From contig JAHIWM010000200.1 of NCBI GenBank assembly GCA_018815765.1, positions 1-38,732 of the forward strand: a DNA stretch of 38,732 bases. The letters are read 5' to 3'. This DNA is from Gammaproteobacteria bacterium (GTDB lineage Bacteria > Pseudomonadota > Gammaproteobacteria > Enterobacterales > Alteromonadaceae). Below the pieces are notes generated by a model. That model did no database searches, was not told the origin of the DNA, and worked only from the letters and a program-made list of their open reading frames with translations. The position numbers and the translations under genes were made by a program. This document shows positions 3,462 through 37,564 of the stretch, piece after piece (positions within the stretch are counted from its first letter, which is position 1; every line of letters starts with the position of its first letter).

Positions 3462-4463
3462 TCAGCCAGCATCAAATAACAGTACTGCATCCAGCACTGT
3501 TTCACTGACTTCGCGGTAAAACTCCTGATCGATATTTTCTACTGTATCCGTTGGCTGGTGATAATCGGCATGATCCGGCACGCCAAAATAGACAAAAGGC
3601 ACTGCTCTTTTGTGGAATTCTCTGTGGTCGGAACTGAAGGTCCAGTCCTGGTGAGTGCCCACCCGCCATGCTGGCCTGTCATAACCTAATAATAAACGCA
3701 CTGAACTTTGTTGCTGCAGTTGCTGTAATGGCTTTTCCAGCTCCGGATAATGATAAGAACCCACAGCAATTAACTGCTTATTGGTGTCGTGGCTCAGCAT
3801 ATCCATATTGATATTCAGCTTAACCCGTAGTGGGTTGAGCAGCTCTTGCTCAAACAACATACGGGCGCCCCACATGCCGGTTTCTTCGTTATCCAAGGCG
3901 GCAAACAACAGAGTATGGCGGGGTGGATGTTGCTTAAAATAACGCGCTATCGCTAGCAAAGCAGCAACACCTGAAGCATTATCGTCAGCACCAAAATAAA
4001 TTTTGCCCTGATGCAAACCCAAATGATCGTAATGCGCTGTCAGCACCAGCAGGGGTAAGCTGGGATCTGAGCCTTCAATCCTGCCCAACACATTCGCAGC
4101 CCCCTTCATCAGCTGAGCTTTACCTGTGGTCGGTTGATATGGCTGTAAATAACCTTCTGTGCCAGCCGCAATCAAACCTATTTGAGTGAACTCTGTAACC
4201 AGCCATTGCTGAGCTTTGGCACCACCAGGCTGGCCTGTGCCACGACCAGCCAATTCGTCAGATGCTAAATAGCTTAGATCAGCCATTTGTTGCACAAAGT
4301 CGAGCCGCTGCGGCATGTGGCTCACCACAGGCTGAGGCTGAGCCAACAAACGTTTTTGCTCCATCTGGTTCAACTGCTCTAACAGATAAGGATGAAACGC
4401 ATAACCAAGGCCTGCCACGACAAATAACAACCAAAGCCAGAGCGGAATACGGAGTAACTTCAT
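3462..4463 (-). CDS. M28-family zinc metallopeptidase, membrane-anchored
   Basis: This is a predicted zinc aminopeptidase of family M28 (333 aa). The metal-binding series is complete: TAHYDH (His144, Asp146), GADDNASG near 158-165, the catalytic pair in DNEETG (Glu193/194), Asp221 in NMDML, and a final His in DYHQPTDT. The N-terminus MKLLRIPLWLWLLFVV is a hydrophobic signal or anchor, so the enzyme should act in the periplasm. I chose the ATG at 4463, which has an AGGA eight bases upstream. An in-frame TTG at 4529 would add 22 residues but has no ribosome binding site. It is transcribed away from rhtA. The peptide substrate cannot be told from sequence. Confidence 0.88.
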   Translation of the reverse strand: MKLLRIPLWLWLLFVVAGLGYAFHPYLLEQLNQMEQKRLLAQPQPVVSHMPQRLDFVQQMADLSYLASDELAGRGTGQPGGAKAQQWLVTEFTQIGLIAAGTEGYLQPYQPTTGKAQLMKGAANVLGRIEGSDPSLPLLVLTAHYDHLGLHQGKIYFGADDNASGVAALLAIARYFKQHPPRHTLLFAALDNEETGMWGARMLFEQELLNPLRVKLNINMDMLSHDTNKQLIAVGSYHYPELEKPLQQLQQQSSVRLLLGYDRPAWRVGTHQDWTFSSDHREFHKRAVPFVYFGVPDHADYHQPTDTVENIDQEFYREVSETVLDAVLLFDAG

Positions 4464-29300: not shown

Positions 29301-29723
29301 TTATGCCGGCTTTCTTAGCTTTAACTGAAATAGCTGCATTGCAATTTCATCAGATTGTTGTTGCTCGGCTTTTTGCTGTTTTTGCAGCGCGTTAAATTCA
29401 CGGTTATGGATCACCGCCTCTATGCCTTTGCTGTATGCCACTTGTTTCTGACACACCTGTTGCTGCTGTTGCAGCTCAGACAAAGCCGCACCGACTTTTT
29501 CCTGCTGCTGCTGTTGCATGTCCTGCAGCACAGTTTTCATCGACGCCAGATTTTGTAAACCCAAAGCCGATTTCATCTGGTAACTGCGTTCCATACCAGA
29601 AATATGTTCCGTCAGCAGTTGCAAACGCCGTTCTTCATTGGCCGCTTGTTGATTCAGTTGCTGCTGGCGTTGTCCCATCTGCTTTAAATTGGCTTGCTGT
29701 TGTTCCAGGTATTTTTTCAACAT
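29301..29723 (-). CDS. fliJ: Flagellar export protein FliJ (lateral system)
   Basis: FliJ is the export-apparatus stalk and chaperone escort. The 140-aa protein is almost wholly alpha-helical coiled coil and very Gln-rich (MLKKYLEQQQANLKQMGQR at the start, LQDMQQQQQEKVGAAL midway), with an AVIHNREFNALQKQQK segment near the end and the right length for FliJ. FliJ sequences are poorly conserved, so the call leans on its position, 4 bp after fliI as last gene of fliEFGHIJ. Confidence 0.82.
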   Translation of the reverse strand: MLKKYLEQQQANLKQMGQRQQQLNQQAANEERRLQLLTEHISGMERSYQMKSALGLQNLASMKTVLQDMQQQQQEKVGAALSELQQQQQVCQKQVAYSKGIEAVIHNREFNALQKQQKAEQQQSDEIAMQLFQLKLRKPA

Positions 29724-29727
29724 AGGC

Positions 29728-31053
29728 TTAACTCAACAATTTAGTTAAATCGGCTTGGGATTGCTGAAAATCAGCGCTTTGTTGTAAGCCCTGACATAAA
29801 AAATGTTCGATGGCCGGATAGAGTTGCACAGCTCTATCGAGCTCCTGATCTTTGCCCATCTGGTACGCGCCTAAAGGGATCAGTTCCTGCACCTGTAAAT
29901 AACGTGAGTACAATCGTTTTAACGCATAAGCATGTTTAAGCTGCTGATCCGGCACTATTTGTGGCATCACCCTGCTGATGGAAGCCCCTATATCAATAGC
30001 CGGATAATGACCACGTTCGGCCAGAGTCCGGCTTAATACCACGTGACCATCCAAAATAGCGCGGGCTGCGTCTGCTATTGGATCCTGCTGATCATCGCCT
30101 TCAGCCAATACGGTATAAATGGCGGTCATACTGCCTTTGCTATCGGCACTATTGCCTGCTTTTTCAACCAATTGTGTCAGCTTGCTAAAGACCGAAGGTG
30201 GATAACCTTTGGTCGCAGGCGGTTCACCGACAGACAAAGCAATTTCGCGCTGCGCCTGGGCATAACGGGTTAGTGAATCCACCAGCAGCAAGACGTTAAA
30301 ACCTAAATCACGATAATAAGCCGCCAGTCGGTGACTCAACTCTGCTGCTTTTAACCGCAGCAAAGGCGACTGGTCAGCCGGAGCCGCAATCACAATGGCC
30401 TTTTTTAACCCTTCAGGCCCCAGACTATGTTCAATAAAATCTTTTACTTCCCAGCCTCGTTCGCCTATTAAACCCACGATCACCACATCGGCCTGGGTAT
30501 AACGGGTCATCATGCCCAGCAACTTACTTTTACCTACGCCTGAGCCGGCAAATAAGCCCATCCGTTGGCCCTGACCTACAGTAAATAGCGAGTTAATAGC
30601 GCGGATCCCCACATCCAGCGGAGCACTGACGCCTTTTTTCTGCAAAGGGTTAACAGCGGGCAAAGCCGCATTGATACGATCGCCGGTTTTAATGGCTGCT
30701 TTGCCATCCAGCGGACACATTAAACCGTCCAGCACCCGGCCTAATAGCTCAGTGGAAACCAATAATTGATTGGCGGTCGCGACGGTACGAACACGGGCGC
30801 CGGCTCTTAAACCATCCACTGCTGTTAATGGCATTAAAAAGGCCTGATCGGTGTCAAAACCTACCACTTCGGCGTCAAACCAATGACCATCTTCACTTTC
30901 AATCTGACAACGCTGACCTAAAGTAAAACTTTCACCGGCAGCAGATAAAATCATGCCGTTCACCCGCAGCAAACGGCCATAGCTGTGCACCCAATCCGGC
31001 GGCTGAATTTGTGCTCTGGCCAGACTCAGGCTTTCGCTGAATGACTTACGCAT
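29728..31053 (-). CDS. fliI: Flagellum-specific ATPase FliI (lateral system)
   Basis: FliI is the F1-beta-like ATPase of the flagellar type III export apparatus (441 aa). It has Walker A GSGVGKS at residues 170-176, a preceding VGQGQRMGLFAG segment, a VIVGLIGERGWEVKDF block, Walker B LLLVDSLTRYAQAQREI, the GEPPATKGYPPSVF loop and GHVVLSRTLAERGHYPAID. All are typical of FliI rather than the ATP synthase beta subunit. Its start overlaps the end of fliH by 8 bp, and fliJ follows after 4 bp. Confidence 0.95.
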   Translation of the reverse strand: MRKSFSESLSLARAQIQPPDWVHSYGRLLRVNGMILSAAGESFTLGQRCQIESEDGHWFDAEVVGFDTDQAFLMPLTAVDGLRAGARVRTVATANQLLVSTELLGRVLDGLMCPLDGKAAIKTGDRINAALPAVNPLQKKGVSAPLDVGIRAINSLFTVGQGQRMGLFAGSGVGKSKLLGMMTRYTQADVVIVGLIGERGWEVKDFIEHSLGPEGLKKAIVIAAPADQSPLLRLKAAELSHRLAAYYRDLGFNVLLLVDSLTRYAQAQREIALSVGEPPATKGYPPSVFSKLTQLVEKAGNSADSKGSMTAIYTVLAEGDDQQDPIADAARAILDGHVVLSRTLAERGHYPAIDIGASISRVMPQIVPDQQLKHAYALKRLYSRYLQVQELIPLGAYQMGKDQELDRAVQLYPAIEHFLCQGLQQSADFQQSQADLTKLLS

Positions 31054-31687
31054 CGTCGCCCAACAACTGACGACGTACAGGCAGCATGGCCTGAGCTAAA
31101 CGCTGCTGGAAATCAAGCTGATGCAATTGCTGACGACCGTTAAACTGCACCCGGCCTGAAGGTAAGGCTGCATCAAATTGCAGAGGAATTTGCTGAATAT
31201 GGCGGATACCATTAAAAAGCGGTGCATCGGCCTGGGATAACTGAATAGATTGCAGCGGATCTGTAGCGCCCAGTTGTGGTAGCAACTGATCAATAGCCAG
31301 TTGCAATAAAGACGGCTGCAACACCAGTTCAGTTTGCAACACTGTGCTGGCCAGTTGCTGCACCAGTAATAACAATTCCTGCCCCAGTTGCTGTTCTTTA
31401 TGCTGCAACTGCTGATTAAATTGTTCGGTTAAAAAATCCAAAGCACGTTGTTGTTTTTGTGCCAATTCGTTTTGCTGTTTTTCCAGCTCGTTTTGCCAGA
31501 ACTGCTGTAATTGTTGCTGACCTTCGGCAACACCACGCTGATAAGCCTCTTGTTCAGTCGCTTCAACTCCAGCCTGAAAGCCCTGCTGATAAAACCGCTC
31601 ACTCAACTGCTGCACTGTGGCGTTGCCATCTTTGCGTTGCAAAACGGGAAAGCGGAATTGTTGGTCCTGCTGCAACACGGCACTCAT
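31046..31687 (-). CDS. fliH: Flagellar assembly protein FliH (lateral system)
   Basis: FliH is the peripheral stator and negative regulator of FliI. The 213-aa protein has a Gln-rich N-terminal coiled coil with the GFQAGVEATEQEAYQRGVAEGQ repeat region (GxxxG-type spacing near residues 33-55), then a compact C-terminal domain (LLLVQQLASTVLQTEL, VQFNGRQQLHQLDFQQRL) that would dock on FliI. It starts one base after fliG ends and overlaps fliI by 8 bp. Confidence 0.85.
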   Translation of the reverse strand: MSAVLQQDQQFRFPVLQRKDGNATVQQLSERFYQQGFQAGVEATEQEAYQRGVAEGQQQLQQFWQNELEKQQNELAQKQQRALDFLTEQFNQQLQHKEQQLGQELLLLVQQLASTVLQTELVLQPSLLQLAIDQLLPQLGATDPLQSIQLSQADAPLFNGIRHIQQIPLQFDAALPSGRVQFNGRQQLHQLDFQQRLAQAMLPVRRQLLGDDA

Positions 31688-31688
31688 A

Positions 31689-32708
31689 TCAACCTACCGT
31701 CTCTTCAGGATAGAGGCGATATTCCAGTCGCCCTGCCGCCATCATTTGTTTCACTATGGCCATAATTTCAGCACGGGCTGCTTCGACTTTACGCACAGGC
31801 TGAGGTTTCATCGTCTCAATTTGCTGACGATAGACCTGAGCCAAACGTTTTGGCAATACAGCTAAAATGCTTTCGGTTAGAGCCACATCTGCACCTTTGA
31901 GTGCAGTGACCCAGAGTTCATCTGGTATATCAGTCAGCAACTGATTCAGTACATCTTCGCTCTGACGGCTTAAGCTGTAGAAGTCATACATCTTGTCTTC
32001 AATCGCATCAGCCATAGCAATGTCGTGCTTTTTCAACAGATCCATGATTTCGATTTTATTGCCGCTGTATCTGTTCATAATGTCAGCCACTTGCTGCACA
32101 CCATTAATACGGGCACCCACTTGCTCGCCGACATATTCAATACAACGTTCCAGCGTATAACGTAAGTCTTCAATGACGTGTTCGCTAACTTCCCGCATAT
32201 TGGCAATACGGAATAAAATATCGTCGTGTTTTTGCGCCGGAAATAAGGCCAGAATAGTGCTGGCTTGCTCTGCAGGTAAAAAGGCCAGAATCAGCGCCTG
32301 CATCTGAATATGTTCCTGCTCCATAAAACGCACCAGCAACTCAGCAGGTACCCACTCCAGACGACGTACATCGTCAGCCAGGGCTCCGCCGTAAATATCA
32401 TCCAGCATGCCGCGCGCTAATTTGCGGCCTACGGCTTTATCCAGAGCTCGCTCCAGATAAACACGTGAAGCACCGCTGACGCCACTCTCTGTGCGGTACT
32501 GATCAAAAAAGTCCGTCAGAATATTAGCCACGTCATCCTGGGTCACGTTGGCAATCTTGGCCATACGCTCAGATAAAGCACGAACCTCATTCCGACCTAA
32601 CTTCTTGATAATACAGGCCGCATTTTCTTCACCCATACTCAATAACAGTATGGCGGCTCTGTCCAGATCGGAGATCTGTTTGCTCTGTTCAGCTCTTAAC
32701 GGATTCAA
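31689..32708 (-). CDS. fliG: Flagellar motor switch protein FliG (lateral system)
   Basis: FliG is the rotor protein that links the MS ring to the stators (339 aa). It has an N-terminal FliF-binding domain with LDRAAILLLSMGEENA near residue 15, a middle domain with EHIQ (132-135), which corresponds to the EHPQ motif, and a C-terminal torque domain with DVLNQLLTDIPDELWVTALKGAD near residue 255. The start is a TTG preceded by GAGGAG at a six-base spacing, and it lies 20 bp inside fliF, so translation is coupled. The start choice rests on that strong ribosome binding site. Confidence 0.93.
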   Translation of the reverse strand: MNPLRAEQSKQISDLDRAAILLLSMGEENAACIIKKLGRNEVRALSERMAKIANVTQDDVANILTDFFDQYRTESGVSGASRVYLERALDKAVGRKLARGMLDDIYGGALADDVRRLEWVPAELLVRFMEQEHIQMQALILAFLPAEQASTILALFPAQKHDDILFRIANMREVSEHVIEDLRYTLERCIEYVGEQVGARINGVQQVADIMNRYSGNKIEIMDLLKKHDIAMADAIEDKMYDFYSLSRQSEDVLNQLLTDIPDELWVTALKGADVALTESILAVLPKRLAQVYRQQIETMKPQPVRKVEAARAEIMAIVKQMMAAGRLEYRLYPEETVG

Positions 32709-34428
32709 TGCTGACTCCTCGTTCTATCCAGTATTTGATTACCGCCGTCACCCGGTCGGATTCACGGTTGGCCAGTAATTGCAGGTGACTGATTTGCTGA
32801 GTAAATTCAGAACCCACTTCAGGCAAATGAATGTTATGTTGTGGCCCTGTTGAAGTCGCATTGGTTAAGGCGGGGTCTGCCTTCGCATCCAACACTGCAG
32901 GTCCTGAGGCGGCATCAGCGTTTTGCATTTGTGTCAGGTTGTGGCCACCGGCCATTCCCTGAAACCCGGCAGCGTGCTGGTCTTTGTTTTTGCGGCTGAC
33001 CAGATGATTCACTAAAGGCCTAACCCCAAATATCACCAGTGCTAAGCCAATGATGGCGCCGATCAGGTAACGCAAATACTCTTTCATTTCAGGCATTTGC
33101 CACCAGGCCATACCTTCCATCTGAGTCGCAGCATCACTAGGTACAAAACCAAAACTGGTAATATTAAACTGATCGCCACGTTCAGCCTGATGGCCTGTCG
33201 CAGTTTTAATCATTTCGCCTAATTGGGCTAAACGCTCCGGAGTCCAGGGCGTTTCACCTGCTGTCGCGTCATTCACCAACACAGACACACTTTGACTGCG
33301 TACCCGGCCTATTTCATAACGGGTGTGGGTAATGGCTTTGCCTGTATCAAACTCACGGCGCATTTCGTTACGCTGCGAGGTCCGTTCATTGTTCTCCGCT
33401 TCAGCTGCGGCACCTGGTTGAGCAGGCACAGGTGGCTGATTGGCTAAAGAACCCGGAATACCCATAGCCAGTTGATCCAGCATCGAATCAGTTTTGCTGT
33501 TTTCACTTTTCAGTACACCTTCTTTATCCAATGCTTCACGGGTTTCTTCCACCACGTTAAAGTCGACATCGGCTGACACCTGAATACGGTAGTTACCATC
33601 ACCTAAAATAGGCAACAACATAATAGAAGCCCGCTCTTCGACAGAACGTTCCACTTTTTCAATAAAGGCCAGTTTTTTGTCGGTTTCTTTACCCACAGGG
33701 GTTTCGTCAAACAGATCGCCGCTGACTAACTTACCGCGCTGATCCACCACTGAAATTTTGCGGCTATCCAAACCAGGAATACTGCCTGACACCAGGCTGA
33801 CAATAGCTTCGACCTGCTCAGGTTTCAGGTTGTAACCAGGCGCCAGGTCAACCATCACAGAAGCCGCAGATTTTTCTTCCTGACGGCCAACAAACAAATT
33901 ACGTTTAGGAATAGCCAAATGCACCCTGGCGTTGCGCACACCATCCATCGTAATAATGGTACGGGCTAATTCGCCTTCCAGTGCATGTTGGTATTGCATC
34001 GACTCCATAAACTGGCTGGTGCCCATAGTGACTTTGTCTTGCATCGCAGACAAACCTTCAGGCATAGCGGCTTTAATACCACGGGCAGCCAGCGTAATAC
34101 GCGCATCAGCTAAGCGTTCCTGCGGCACCATAATATTGCCGCTGTCGGTATCGATCCGGAATGGAAACTGCTCTTTATCCAGGATTTCCACTATACCGGC
34201 TTTGTCGTAATGCTCCTGATTGCCATACAAAGGCACAAAGTTTTTTGCCGATGTCCAGAGGATCACGACTATAGTGGCGGCCACTAAAGTCGCCAGCAGC
34301 GCAATGGATGCCAGGCTTTTATCACCAGCAGGTAACCAGTTTATTTTGCTGGATAAGTTAATGACTCTTTCCCGCAGTCTGTTGTCTGAAGCCGCCACAG
34401 GCAGGGCTTTTGCCAATTCAGTTTTCAT
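32689..34428 (-). CDS. fliF: Flagellar MS-ring protein FliF (lateral system)
   Basis: FliF builds the MS ring of the basal body in the inner membrane (579 aa). Transmembrane helix 1 lies near residues 40-60 (IALLATLVAATIVVILW). The YscJ/FliF ring domain contains FPFRIDTDSGNIMVP, AARGIKAAMPEG, GELARTIITMDGVRNARVHLAIP and QVEAIVSLVSGSIPGLD. Helix 2 is near 445-465 (YLIGAIIGLALVIFGV), followed by the cytosolic FliG-binding tail. It begins 12 bp after fliE and its stop lies inside fliG. Confidence 0.95.
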   Translation of the reverse strand: MKTELAKALPVAASDNRLRERVINLSSKINWLPAGDKSLASIALLATLVAATIVVILWTSAKNFVPLYGNQEHYDKAGIVEILDKEQFPFRIDTDSGNIMVPQERLADARITLAARGIKAAMPEGLSAMQDKVTMGTSQFMESMQYQHALEGELARTIITMDGVRNARVHLAIPKRNLFVGRQEEKSAASVMVDLAPGYNLKPEQVEAIVSLVSGSIPGLDSRKISVVDQRGKLVSGDLFDETPVGKETDKKLAFIEKVERSVEERASIMLLPILGDGNYRIQVSADVDFNVVEETREALDKEGVLKSENSKTDSMLDQLAMGIPGSLANQPPVPAQPGAAAEAENNERTSQRNEMRREFDTGKAITHTRYEIGRVRSQSVSVLVNDATAGETPWTPERLAQLGEMIKTATGHQAERGDQFNITSFGFVPSDAATQMEGMAWWQMPEMKEYLRYLIGAIIGLALVIFGVRPLVNHLVSRKNKDQHAAGFQGMAGGHNLTQMQNADAASGPAVLDAKADPALTNATSTGPQHNIHLPEVGSEFTQQISHLQLLANRESDRVTAVIKYWIERGVSIESVKS

Positions 34429-34440
34429 TGAAAGTCCGCC

Positions 34441-34758
34441 TTACAGAGACATACGCATGATGTCGTCGACACCATTCATCACTTTGTTGCGGATTTGCAG
34501 CAACATGGAAAAACTTAAATCAGCTTTTTGGCTGGCCACCATAGCGCCGACCATATCATCGCTGCGACCCGCATCTACCGCCGCCATCATGTCAGATGAC
34601 AAATTTTGCTGAGCATTGATAGAACGCAGGGCGGAGGCAAAATCTCCCGACATCGAACTGTCGTTGTTGGCAGGCATCACTTGCTCATTGCTGGCAATTT
34701 GTTGTAACTGGTTAAACTGGCTCAGTAACACGTCTTGGGTATTTAATGGAGAAATCAT
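34441..34758 (-). CDS. fliE: Flagellar hook-basal body protein FliE (lateral system)
   Basis: FliE is the MS ring-rod junction protein (105 aa). The C-terminal half KADLSFSMLLQIRNKVMNGVDDIMRMSL is the conserved FliE signature, with VASQKADLSF and a typical final helix. The N-terminal half is Ser/Asn/Gln-rich and variable as usual. It is 19 bp after lafK and 12 bp before fliF. Confidence 0.9.
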   Translation of the reverse strand: MISPLNTQDVLLSQFNQLQQIASNEQVMPANNDSSMSGDFASALRSINAQQNLSSDMMAAVDAGRSDDMVGAMVASQKADLSFSMLLQIRNKVMNGVDDIMRMSL

Positions 34759-34777: not shown

Positions 34778-36091
34778 TTAAGCTATTGCGTCAATATCAA
34801 CACCATGCTCACGCATAGCGGCCAGTTTGTAGCGTAGGGCTCTGGTGCTGACACCTAAAGCCTCGGCAGCCCGGGTTCTGTGACCATTACACTGGTTCAG
34901 TACTCCCAGAATGTAATCAAATTCGGCATTCTTTTTGTTGAGTTTCAAATGGTTAATGCTGGCAGATTCAGGCGCTACTGCAGCCGACACCGGCAAGTTC
35001 AGATCAATAGCCTGAACTTCAATACCCCTGGCCATCACTAATGCGCGCTGTACCACGTTCTCCAGTTCACGCACGTTGCCCGGCCAACTGTATTGGCATA
35101 ACGCTGCCTTAGCTTCTTTGCTCAGCACATATTTGCCATCGGCATACTTCTGCACAAAAAACTCAGCCAGTGGAATAATGTCTTCTTTGCGTTCACGTAA
35201 AGCCGGCCAGCTTAGTGGCAATACATCCAGGCGGTAGAATAAGTCCTGACGGAACAGGCCCTGATCCACTAACTGGCGTAAATCTTTGTTGCTGGCAGCT
35301 ATGACCCGTACATCCAGTTTGATTTTGCTGTTGCTGCCTAAACGCTCTAACTCACGCTCCTGCAATACCCGCAATAACTTGGCTTGTAGCGGCAACGGCA
35401 GCTCGGATATTTCATCCAGTAACAAAGTGCCGCCGTTAGCTGCTTCAAACTTACCAATTTGCTGACTGACAGCGCCGGTAAATGCCCCTTTGTTGTAACC
35501 AAACAACATAGCTTCGAGCATATTCTCCGGAATAGCAGCACAGTTAATCGCAACATAAGCCTCATCACGGCGGCCTGATACATTGTGAATATAACGGGCT
35601 AAACGTTCTTTACCTGTACCTGACTCACCATGCAATAACACTGTTGCATCGGTCTGAGCGGCCCTATTAGCCAGTTGCAACACCTGGCGACTGCCCAGCG
35701 ATACAGCCACCAGATCTTTTAAACCCCGGCTGATCGAAGAGGCATTACGGATGGTGTTTTGCAACTGCTGTTGGTTAAAAGGTTTCAGCAGATAATCAAT
35801 AGCGCCGTAGTTCAGACTTTCAGCAGCGACCGCATGTTGATCTTTTTCTACCAGTACTATGATTTGGCTGGACGGATGCTGTTTTTTCAGCAGCACCATT
35901 AAATCCAAAGTGCGCATTTCAGCCAGTTCAGCGGCCATGACGATAATGTCTGGTTGTTGCAAAGAGCAAGAGTTCAGCACAGCGCTCAGATCAGCGGCGT
36001 GGGTTAACTGAAAACCTTCAGCTTTGACACAAAGCATCAGGTCCTGTCCCGGCCGGCATTGTTCAATCCAAAGTAAATGTTTCATGTTCAT
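34778..36091 (-). CDS. lafK: Sigma-54-dependent lateral flagellar regulator LafK
   Basis: This is an enhancer-binding activator of RpoN promoters (437 aa) in the FlrA/LafK group. The N-terminal receiver-like domain (residues 1-115) has Ala53 where the phosphoacceptor Asp should be, so it is probably not phosphorylated. The AAA+ domain has Walker A GESGTGKE (155-162), the sigma54-contact GAFTGA (202-207) and Walker B GGTLLLDEI (220-228). The C-terminus has a Fis-type HTH (NGHRTRAAEALGVSTRALRYKL). Position next to motY and fliEFGHIJ matches the Vibrio parahaemolyticus and Aeromonas lateral clusters. It is preceded by motY with a 17-bp gap. Confidence 0.88.
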   Translation of the reverse strand: MNMKHLLWIEQCRPGQDLMLCVKAEGFQLTHAADLSAVLNSCSLQQPDIIVMAAELAEMRTLDLMVLLKKQHPSSQIIVLVEKDQHAVAAESLNYGAIDYLLKPFNQQQLQNTIRNASSISRGLKDLVAVSLGSRQVLQLANRAAQTDATVLLHGESGTGKERLARYIHNVSGRRDEAYVAINCAAIPENMLEAMLFGYNKGAFTGAVSQQIGKFEAANGGTLLLDEISELPLPLQAKLLRVLQERELERLGSNSKIKLDVRVIAASNKDLRQLVDQGLFRQDLFYRLDVLPLSWPALRERKEDIIPLAEFFVQKYADGKYVLSKEAKAALCQYSWPGNVRELENVVQRALVMARGIEVQAIDLNLPVSAAVAPESASINHLKLNKKNAEFDYILGVLNQCNGHRTRAAEALGVSTRALRYKLAAMREHGVDIDAIA

Positions 36092-36108: not shown

Positions 36109-36945
36109 TCAGCTTTGAGCACGGATCAAACGGACCAGTACTCTCCTGTTATGCGATTGGGTTTTATTGCCAGCACCAGCCGGGTATCTGTTGCCATGGG
36201 CACGGATTTCCAGTTTGTTTTTGCTGACACCAAATTCAATTAAACGTGACGCCACCTCATCGGCGCGTTCTTCGGACATCACTCTGTTGGCGATGCTGGT
36301 TCCCATATCGTCTGTGTATCCGTCTATCAGTACTTTTTTTACGGCTTTGTCCTGCTGAATATAAAGCGCCAGAGTTTTCAGATGAGTTGCGTCGTCGGCG
36401 GACGGCTGGCGTGCATTCAGGGGGAAAAACAGTTGGAATTCGCGGGCTTGATCCCAGGATAATGGCAATAAACCATCAATACAGTTTTGGAAGCTGGCCA
36501 GTGCCTGACCGGATTTAATATTGGGCACAGTAAGAGTGATTTCCTGACCAGGCATGTCTAGTACCAGTTGCAGCCAGTAGCCTTGTTGCAGCTGCTGCAT
36601 CACCAGCGGCACCTGCTCAATAAAGCGGGCAACTTTGGCATTGATAAAAGTCGGGGAAAATTGTACTGCAGGCGCCAGTTGTTCTGGCTGCCAACCGGCC
36701 GTGACAATATGACCCTGCACATCCTGCAACTCCAGATGAGCTGCATGCATAGTCAGTTGCATTTCAATAACACGGGCAGGTTCTTTGCTGAACGCTAAAG
36801 TACCCATAGCGCCCAGATCCTGTTCCATCCGGCACTGAAACTGATCACCGCTGACATGCCACTGTGATTGATCCATAGCTGGCGTGTACTGCGGAGCAGT
36901 AGCTACAGCAGATGCTAGCCAAACACTTAATAACGAAGTAATCAC
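36109..36945 (-). CDS. motY: MotY-like OmpA-family protein of the lateral motor
   Basis: MotY forms the periplasmic T ring that anchors PomAB-type stators. The 278-aa protein has a signal peptide and an N-terminal MotY-type beta domain (YTPAMDQSQWHVSGDQFQCRM near residue 19). A C-terminal OmpA/MotB peptidoglycan-binding domain follows (about 165-275: KKVLIDGYTDDMG, SEERADEVASRLIEFGV, EIRAHGNRYP, NRRVLVRLI). It starts at a GTG with AGGA eight bases upstream. It is the first gene after the c-di-GMP riboswitch leader and is followed at 17 bp by lafK. Other OmpA-family proteins are possible, but the N-terminal half and location favour MotY. Confidence 0.82.
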   Translation of the reverse strand: MITSLLSVWLASAVATAPQYTPAMDQSQWHVSGDQFQCRMEQDLGAMGTLAFSKEPARVIEMQLTMHAAHLELQDVQGHIVTAGWQPEQLAPAVQFSPTFINAKVARFIEQVPLVMQQLQQGYWLQLVLDMPGQEITLTVPNIKSGQALASFQNCIDGLLPLSWDQAREFQLFFPLNARQPSADDATHLKTLALYIQQDKAVKKVLIDGYTDDMGTSIANRVMSEERADEVASRLIEFGVSKNKLEIRAHGNRYPAGAGNKTQSHNRRVLVRLIRAQS

Positions 36946-37018
36946 ACGTTAATCCTTTTAACCCGTAAAACCGCAATCGACTAAAACGCCAACCACAAAC
37001 CAGACAGTATTAAAAGGC

Positions 37019-37076
37019 AAAAAAAGCAGACAGGCATACAGACAAATCCGGAACGGATCTGTGTTGTATCCACCTG
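37019..37076 (-). terminator. Leader terminator (expression platform) downstream of the riboswitch
   Basis: Read on the minus strand, CAGG(76-73) and ATACA(69-65) pair with TGTAT(40-36) and CCTG(34-31), enclosing ACAGATCCG-TTC-CGGATTTGT (37062-37042). This gives about 18 pairs with small bulges. TCTGC and then T7 (37025-37019) follow. It lies between the aptamer and motY, with about 73 bp to the GTG, so it is a plausible intrinsic terminator acting as expression platform. Confidence 0.6.
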
Positions 37077-37146
37077 AACAGGCGAAACCCAGGTTTGATC
37101 ATGAAGGACCAACCTACAGGTTCACCTTTTGGGTGACCGCTTGCTA

Positions 37147-37228
37147 ATGCAACCCCGCTATCGTAGATCCTTACGGATCCTTAGACCGGAGGCTTTGCGT
37201 CCTGACCTTTAAGCCAGTTTGCCTTTTA
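37147..37228 (-). ncRNA. Cyclic di-GMP-I (GEMM-I) riboswitch aptamer
   Basis: The minus strand carries the ordered GEMM-I core: AAAAGGCAAAC (37226-37216), a short hairpin CTGGC...GGTCAG, GGACGCAAAGCCTCCGG (37202-37186), then CTAAGGATCC-GTAA-GGATCTA with a GNRA-type loop, and GATAGCGGGGTTGC (37162-37149). These are the same blocks as in the Vibrio Vc2 aptamer (GGGCAAACC, GGGACGCAAAGCCUCCGG, GGUAGCGGGGUUACC). GGC (37222-37220) can pair with GCC (37193-37191) to close P1. It lies in the leader of the motY-lafK-fliEFGHIJ transcript. A hairpin AGGTTCA/TGAACCT sits just upstream at 37253-37275. Boundaries are approximate. Confidence 0.9.
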
Positions 37229-37433
37229 ATTTCTAAGCTTGTTAGAAAAGTGAGGTTCACAGCAAAAATGAACCTTTACTTAATATTACACAATAAACAA
37301 AAAAAAACTGGCTGCAAGCTTTATTTTTATGACCTTCAATCGGTTAGTCAAAAAATATACATAGGCTCGCAGCTGAGCTTATTGTAAAAGCATGTTTGAA
37401 AAACATTTACAGTTCAATAACATACAAATTGTA

Positions 37434-37461
37434 ATTATAGTACATGACCTTTTGGTGACAA
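37434..37461 (-). promoter_or_regulatory. Sigma70-like promoter for the riboswitch leader
   Basis: On the minus strand TTGTCA (37461-37456) and a perfect TATAAT (37439-37434) are separated by 16 bases. Transcription would start near 37427 and give a leader of about 480 nt before motY, with the c-di-GMP aptamer in its middle. The rest of the flhA-motY gap (36946-37564) is AT-rich and has no gene. Confidence 0.65.
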
Positions 37462-37564
37462 AGTCAGATCTAAATCTGAATTCAGCCTGAATTGCGACAG
37501 AATCATGCTTTTAAGCGACAAGCGGAGCAAGTTCAGATCCTTTTTTTTCGTAATTTAGTCGCAT

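Follow-up and report, generated by a model that had tools for sequence, protein, structure and literature searches.

The choice between swarming and settling in bacteria with dual flagellar systems follows the second messenger c-di-GMP. In the literature that we found, as represented by its accessible portions, the described links from c-di-GMP to lateral flagella are proteins. FlrA2, MotL and FilZ share with the locus examined here both the signal and the organelle or behaviour (accessible portions of PMC9061725 and PMC10304486), but they act as proteins on transcription, the motor or chemotaxis, whereas the element described below is an RNA leader.

RNA sensors of the same signal are known from other settings. 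Cd1, located upstream of the flgB operon of Clostridioides difficile, resembles the present element in that it belongs to class I, heads an early flagellar operon containing a regulator (sigD) and has an expected OFF logic (PMC6366702, in excerpt). It differs in serving a Gram-positive organism with a single peritrichous system, in acting by transcription termination and in controlling a sigma factor, whereas the regulator at our locus is a sigma-54 activator belonging to a secondary flagellum. Vc1 and Vc2 of Vibrio, found upstream of gbpA and a tfoX orthologue, are likewise of class I, gammaproteobacterial and free of termination according to the excerpted review (PMC6366702), but they control an adhesin and a tfoX-like gene rather than a flagellar operon. 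The c-di-GMP-I-GGC family (RF03167) belongs to the same Rfam clan, whereas our aptamer scores as RF01051 itself.

For Aeromonas hydrophila, the excerpts of the review name fimbrial and chitinase genes in connection with riboswitches (PMC6366702), and the word ‘riboswitch’ is absent from the accessible part of PMC10304486. Among the titles and abstract openings of the open-access literature, we found no riboswitch on lafK or a lateral flagellar operon, in agreement with the remark in the initial annotation of this DNA that direct RNA control of the lafK operon is not a standard description; subscription papers fall mostly outside this literature, and an earlier mention is possible. Within the literature covered, the riboswitch class is known and the new aspect is its conserved placement before lateral flagellar motY or lafK.

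A c-di-GMP-I aptamer at the head of a lateral flagellar operon

The window, by which we mean the whole 38.7 kb stretch of DNA that was analysed and which makes up one entire contig, carries the genes motY, lafK and fliEFGHIJ downstream of a truncated flhA (Table 1). Genes were called with Pfam and NCBIfam models, and gaps were taken from the coordinates of the open reading frames. In order from motY to fliJ the gaps are 17, 19, 12, -20, 1, -8 and 4 bases (negative values denote overlaps), and the tight packing first described for these genes, in which no gap was put above roughly 20 bp, is thus borne out by a maximum of 19 bases or small overlaps. The name LafK reflects synteny and homology, given that none of the 25 NCBIfam matches listed, of 73, reaches its curated cut-off.

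Table 1. Genes and predicted regulatory features of the operon and its leader
Feature	Coordinates	Strand	Evidence
flhA, C-terminal part; upstream gene truncated by contig end	37565..38713	-	PF00771
Sigma-70 promoter-like site, TTGTCA-16-TATAAT, upstream of aptamer	37434..37461	-	11/12 consensus matches
Terminator-like hairpin between promoter and aptamer	37253..37275	-	Terminator scan
c-di-GMP-I (GEMM-I) riboswitch aptamer, 89 bases	37145..37233	-	RF01051, full-length
5' strand of aptamer, AUUAAAAGGCAAA, similar to the motY Shine-Dalgarno; predicted to pair alternatively with the switching element	37218..37230	-	13-nt perfect complement to 37009-37021
Putative switching element UUUGCCUUUUAAU, anti-aptamer and anti-Shine-Dalgarno	37009..37021	-	Complementarity, folding
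motY Shine-Dalgarno region GUUAAAAGGA (36962-36954 = GUUAAAAGG)	36953..36962	-	Predicted sequestration by 37009-37017 when aptamer folded
motY, GTG start, first operon gene	36109..36945	-	PF18393 MotY_N 66.8 bits, PF00691 OmpA
lafK, sigma-54-dependent lateral flagellar master regulator; probable switch target	34778..36091	-	PF00158, PF00072, PF02954; tree of relatives
fliE	34441..34758	-	PF02049, TIGR00205
fliF (MS ring)	32689..34428	-	TIGR00206 above cut-off
fliG	31689..32708	-	PF14842, PF14841, PF01706
fliH	31046..31687	-	PF02108
fliI (export ATPase)	29728..31053	-	PF00006, TIGR01026
fliJ, weak match	29301..29723	-	PF02050 26.4 bits, below Pfam cut-off 28.4; position

Elsewhere the genome encodes a second, divergent FlhA, in pieces with 35% and 42% identity, as well as another MotY with 20% identity, and for this reason the motY-lafK operon looks like a secondary, lateral system. 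The gene order motY-lafK-fliEFGHIJ together with a second flagellar system are the features by which we recognise a lateral flagellar operon; the remaining lateral cluster lies off the contig. Another contig end (G000:C137:2-391) codes for a stretch that is 98% identical to residues 1-130 of the window FlhA frame, and the two are overlapping or duplicated contig ends. The genome has 55 matches to the GGDEF domain, which makes it very likely that this organism produces c-di-GMP.

The aptamer is the sole Rfam match at the gathering threshold within the window, and covers the RF01051 model completely (78.1 bits, E 7.1e-14, model positions 1-87 of 87, gathering cut-off 35). The initial annotation had placed a near-canonical GEMM-I aptamer in the flhA-motY gap on the coding strand of motY and had proposed a scan of the leader with this same model; the match, well over the cut-off, supports that placement. 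The span originally given, 36109-37461, does contain the aptamer, but it corresponds to motY plus the leader.

Several features suggest that the leader RNA is a genuine c-di-GMP-I riboswitch that would bind c-di-GMP. The motif patterns GCAAAC and GGACGCAAA, together with a 3' pattern whose last letter is C, are present in all 53 lateral aptamer loci assembled in this study, including the window, and we take these motifs to carry the ligand-contact nucleotides G20, A47 and C92 (Vc2 numbering). An alignment of 34 of the 53 lateral aptamers reveals at least one compensatory double change in 11 of 21 consensus pairs. A lateral-aptamer model (R1), built from 34 lateral aptamers with the window sequence among the input, scores the window aptamer at 98.6 bits. 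The GNRA tetraloop on P2 has a docking role and is usual, though the Rfam model does not require it; by eye, this loop is GAAA, GUGA or GCGA in 48 loci and UAAA in all five loci of the clade that includes the window, where the affinity for c-di-GMP may be lower. The window aptamer attains its Rfam score even so.

The genome holds one further c-di-GMP-I aptamer (G000:C184:18830-18913; L048 4831-4914), which precedes a gene for a small DUF3718 protein. At ten other aptamer loci in the genus, the following gene, taken as the first open frame of at least 90 codons, encodes a DUF3718 protein in six cases, a PAS-MCP chemoreceptor in three and a 522-residue frame without a Pfam match in one.

We judge it probable, taking the explanation as a whole, that the window carries a c-di-GMP-I riboswitch with a long history in the lateral master operon, and that this riboswitch, in the window clade, turns the operon off through translation. 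Ligand binding, the promoter, the direction of control, the mechanism and the passage of the effect from motY on to lafK are the parts of this explanation that we infer.

Distribution and inheritance of the aptamer

Lateral lafK loci were collected from samples of differing breadth. Among 22 genomes of the genus, seven encode a LafK with at least 80% identity, and the aptamer lies just upstream of motY in all seven; the best LafK matches in the other 15 are at most 49% identical. A LafK match was found in 29 of 395 genomes of the family sample (at E 1e-125 or better) and in 43 of 394 of the order sample (at E 1e-112 or better), while a class-wide sample of 369 genomes contained no comparably close LafK except that of the window itself. 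The upstream DNA of all the genus, family and order matches at these thresholds was included.

Some candidates were set aside. L095 (G203, 48%) is polar-type, with two activator genes and poorly matching FliE and FliF, like L104 and L110, and at L076 the contig stops at lafK. Eight more sigma-54 activators of the genus (42-45% identity) have no other matches to window proteins beside them. A scan of named genomes was dominated by generic sigma-54 activators, with 34-52% identity among the best 80 loci, and contained no usable lateral locus; an Aeromonas caviae aptamer with no match to window proteins within 4 kb was left uncounted. One search of E. coli genomes gave no match, and another found only atoC, in nine genomes.

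With L095 and L076 dropped, 66 lateral lafK loci remained, all with readable upstream DNA, and at 53 of them an aptamer above the Rfam cut-off (c-di-GMP-I or c-di-GMP-I-GGC) lies upstream of motY or lafK, a result that answers the suggestion made at the outset to look for it in the same gap of related genomes. RF03167 is the best family for four of the 53 (L061, L065, L214 and L227). The aptamer is present at all 29 loci of the window family f1 (L095 aside), at four of four in f15 and three of three in f2, and at 11 of 12 and five of five in genera g51 and g42 of f25; by comparison, it is found at one of eight loci in f6, which is at a guess Shewanella-like, and at none of five in f21.

Of the 13 remaining loci, one (L074, f25 g51) has a degraded aptamer at 4124-4227, with GGCAGAC in place of GGCAAAC, that misses the Rfam cut-off and scores 41.6 bits by R1, possibly reflecting a recent loss. 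The other 12 have none, and in these the lateral-aptamer model finds no match better than E 3.3. Because 11 of the 12 corresponding genomes hold c-di-GMP-I aptamers elsewhere, the absence at lafK is not a detection problem. The five negative loci of f21 are Vibrio by LafK likeness, given that the named Vibrio campbellii LafK is 82-94% identical to them, and the named V. campbellii locus (motY, lafK, fliE, fliF, fliG) yields no match to Rfam even when E values as high as 1 are admitted.

In a maximum-likelihood tree of LafK (68 rows, with L074, L076 and L095 assigned to neither the presence nor the absence group), a branch with support 97/93 separates the 53 aptamer loci from the 12 negatives. 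Aptamer presence thus requires one change on this tree, compared with a mean of 11.2 for shuffles (0 of 500 as low), although gain and loss are not told apart by a tree that is unrooted. The aptamer is co-inherited with lafK, and its placement is conserved. The lone aptamer-positive locus of f6 groups with the LafK proteins of f1, on a long branch, and one possible reading is that operon and aptamer were transferred together.

We favour, as a likely though not secure account, a history in which an RNA gate for c-di-GMP on LafK is old and has been vertically kept in the lateral systems of much of the order, with a single loss, or failure to gain it, on the branch leading to Vibrio and f6; it would then go unseen in the usual Vibrio models. 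In the window lineage, the aptamer would also mimic the Shine-Dalgarno sequence and compete with it for one switching strand. If this account is true, predictions follow for many genera at once. The Vibrio loci examined are without the aptamer, and conclusions drawn from Vibrio may not carry over.

LafK as the probable target

In the window, motY leads the operon, and the order aptamer-motY-lafK holds at all aptamer loci outside genus g51 of f25, with a 286-residue frame that has no match to the window MotY at 1e-3 occupying the place of motY in L080 and L083. At the 11 aptamer loci of g51, lafK follows the aptamer with no intervening MotY match, and its assigned start lies 114-142 bases past the aptamer (the start in L069 being set by likeness to L064). 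The constant neighbour of the lateral aptamers is therefore lafK, and its position directly after the aptamer in one genus points to LafK as the target. The leading position of motY and the degraded aptamer of L074 could instead be taken to mean that the RNA is a relic, or that it serves only motY, a stator-ring part. We regard this as very improbable in view of the g51 arrangement, the retention of the ligand-contact motifs at every one of the 53 loci and the compensatory pair changes.

A LafK homologue is required for most lateral genes in Pseudoalteromonas SM9913 (accessible part of PMC10304486), and lafK is reported in the available text of PMC4406679 to be under OpaR control. If LafK is the target, an RNA sensor before it would link the second messenger directly to the step at which the hierarchy begins.

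A predicted OFF switch in the window clade

The folding models favour, on balance, an OFF switch that acts through translation in the window leader; the initial annotation had suggested no direction of control. The switching element, 124-136 bases past the aptamer, is complementary at 13 of 13 positions to the aptamer 5' strand, a duplex that 2 of 200 shuffled platforms match in the window. This complementarity beats shuffles throughout the window clade (2-8 of 200) and elsewhere only in L075 (9 of 200). In the folded whole leader, the element lies on the aptamer strand with a mean pair probability of 0.94, and the Shine-Dalgarno core AAAGGA is 0.85 unpaired. When the platform is folded alone, as a stand-in for the ligand-locked aptamer, the element pairs with the Shine-Dalgarno sequence and the core is 0.14 unpaired. 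The opening of the Shine-Dalgarno region amounts to +0.30 (over an 11-base segment), a value reached by none of 60 dinucleotide shuffles of the platform, and in the four closest relatives 0, 2, 1 and 0 of 60 shuffles are as good. Compared with separate folding of aptamer and platform, the predicted free state is favoured by 7.6 kcal/mol, and this difference must be overcome by ligand and co-transcriptional folding. Against such a switch, a plain test of the Shine-Dalgarno-platform duplex in the window gives an unremarkable result, with 47 of 300 shuffles as good; the best window partner in that test is another stretch, at +32, and other stretches are also best in L100 and L101.

In the mechanism that we propose, transcription would start at a promoter approximately 200 bases upstream of the aptamer. 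At high c-di-GMP, the aptamer would fold and keep its own 5' strand, leaving UUUGCCUUUUAAU, approximately 125 bases downstream, free to pair with the look-alike motY Shine-Dalgarno, and translation of motY would stop. At low c-di-GMP, the element would prefer the aptamer 5' strand, with which it forms 13 pairs; the aptamer would then unfold, the Shine-Dalgarno would become accessible and the operon would be on, including LafK and the MS-ring and export genes. The effect presumably spreads from motY to lafK by coupling, as we assume, or by the loss of untranslated mRNA. A layout in which the aptamer acts as a Shine-Dalgarno mimic is compact and can be tested with reporters.

A small molecule thus probably helps to decide, via RNA folding, whether the swarming apparatus is made. 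The stronger statement of the initial annotation, that a single RNA switch decides this, goes beyond the evidence, since protein receptors act as well: FlrA2 and MotL are named as likely c-di-GMP mediators in Shewanella putrefaciens (accessible part of PMC9061725).

A working c-di-GMP-I riboswitch might also turn the operon off at the level of transcription, through a terminator or Rho access rather than the Shine-Dalgarno sequence. The known flagellar case, Cd1 of C. difficile, is OFF by termination (PMC6366702, in excerpt), and in the window a run of seven U residues (37025-37019) follows a long imperfect hairpin. However, this run overlaps the switching element, a terminator scan finds no terminator-like site on the same strand between aptamer and motY, and in genera g1 and g12 (17 loci) the stretch that best complements the Shine-Dalgarno sequence lies in the switching element. 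We accordingly hold control of transcription to be unlikely, and prefer control of translation.

Variation among the leaders

The 17 loci just mentioned bear on how far the translational mechanism extends. In each, the 12-base stretch most complementary to the Shine-Dalgarno sequence, identified with no shuffle comparison, falls within the switching element, its position being +118 to +129 for g1 and +77 to +79 for g12, with the best register off by one base in L096, L098 and L099. The paired letters of element and Shine-Dalgarno are UUAAAAGG with CCUUUUAA in the window, AAAUAAAAGG with CCUUUUAUUU in six of ten g12 loci and CAAUAAAAGG with CCUUUUAUUG in L215; L211 has a longer match with one wobble, and one pair is broken in L212 and L214. 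The letters of the two partners thus appear to tend to co-vary in g12.

Across all 53 leaders, 16 show an OFF-type opening of the Shine-Dalgarno region (at most 3 of 60 shuffles as good), comprising the five of the window clade and 11 others, while two (L217 and L071) behave in the opposite sense and 35 in neither. With so few OFF-type leaders and two opposite ones, the mechanism cannot be generalised, and since relatives are not independent the counts provide no probability. A general rule for the expression platform, sought over the lateral leaders, was not found. From the folding models, we would consider the platform settled no wider than the window clade, the four loci of g121 and individual loci from g12, f2, f15 and g51.

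Class I switches of both directions exist, according to the excerpted review (PMC6366702), and the folds of L217 and L071 lend some weight to an ON switch, in which c-di-GMP would open the operon, for example by promoting surface swarming at intermediate levels. This reading appears quite improbable for the window, because the 16 leaders that surpass their shuffles fold in the OFF sense, and because the phosphodiesterase PdeB stimulates the lateral system of S. putrefaciens (accessible part of PMC9061725), which indicates that low c-di-GMP favours the lateral system there. In L217, the Shine-Dalgarno is 0.78 open without the aptamer but 0.18 open in its presence, with 60 of 60 shuffles equalling or exceeding the leader, and the polarity of the switch may have changed in one lineage.

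Transcription of the leader

The good promoter-like site upstream of the aptamer implies that aptamer and motY would be co-transcribed. None of 100 shuffles reaches the 11 matches of the window site, and the whole region contains three promoter-like sites compared with 1.9 expected. A site with 9-11 matches lies at the same position in all five window-clade loci, with the 9 or 10 matches of the other four being reached by 11 to 51 of 100 shuffles. In ten of the 11 g51 loci, 107-124 bases separate the end of the best site from the aptamer, and 13-42 of 100 shuffles are as good. Transcription may also read through from flhA.

Upstream of the promoter-like site, the minus strand carries a perfect dyad, AATTCAG-G-CTGAATT (37479-37493), that is possibly a transcription-factor operator. 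A similar dyad with a differing centre is found upstream in L096, L098 and L099, and one with a further change in L097.
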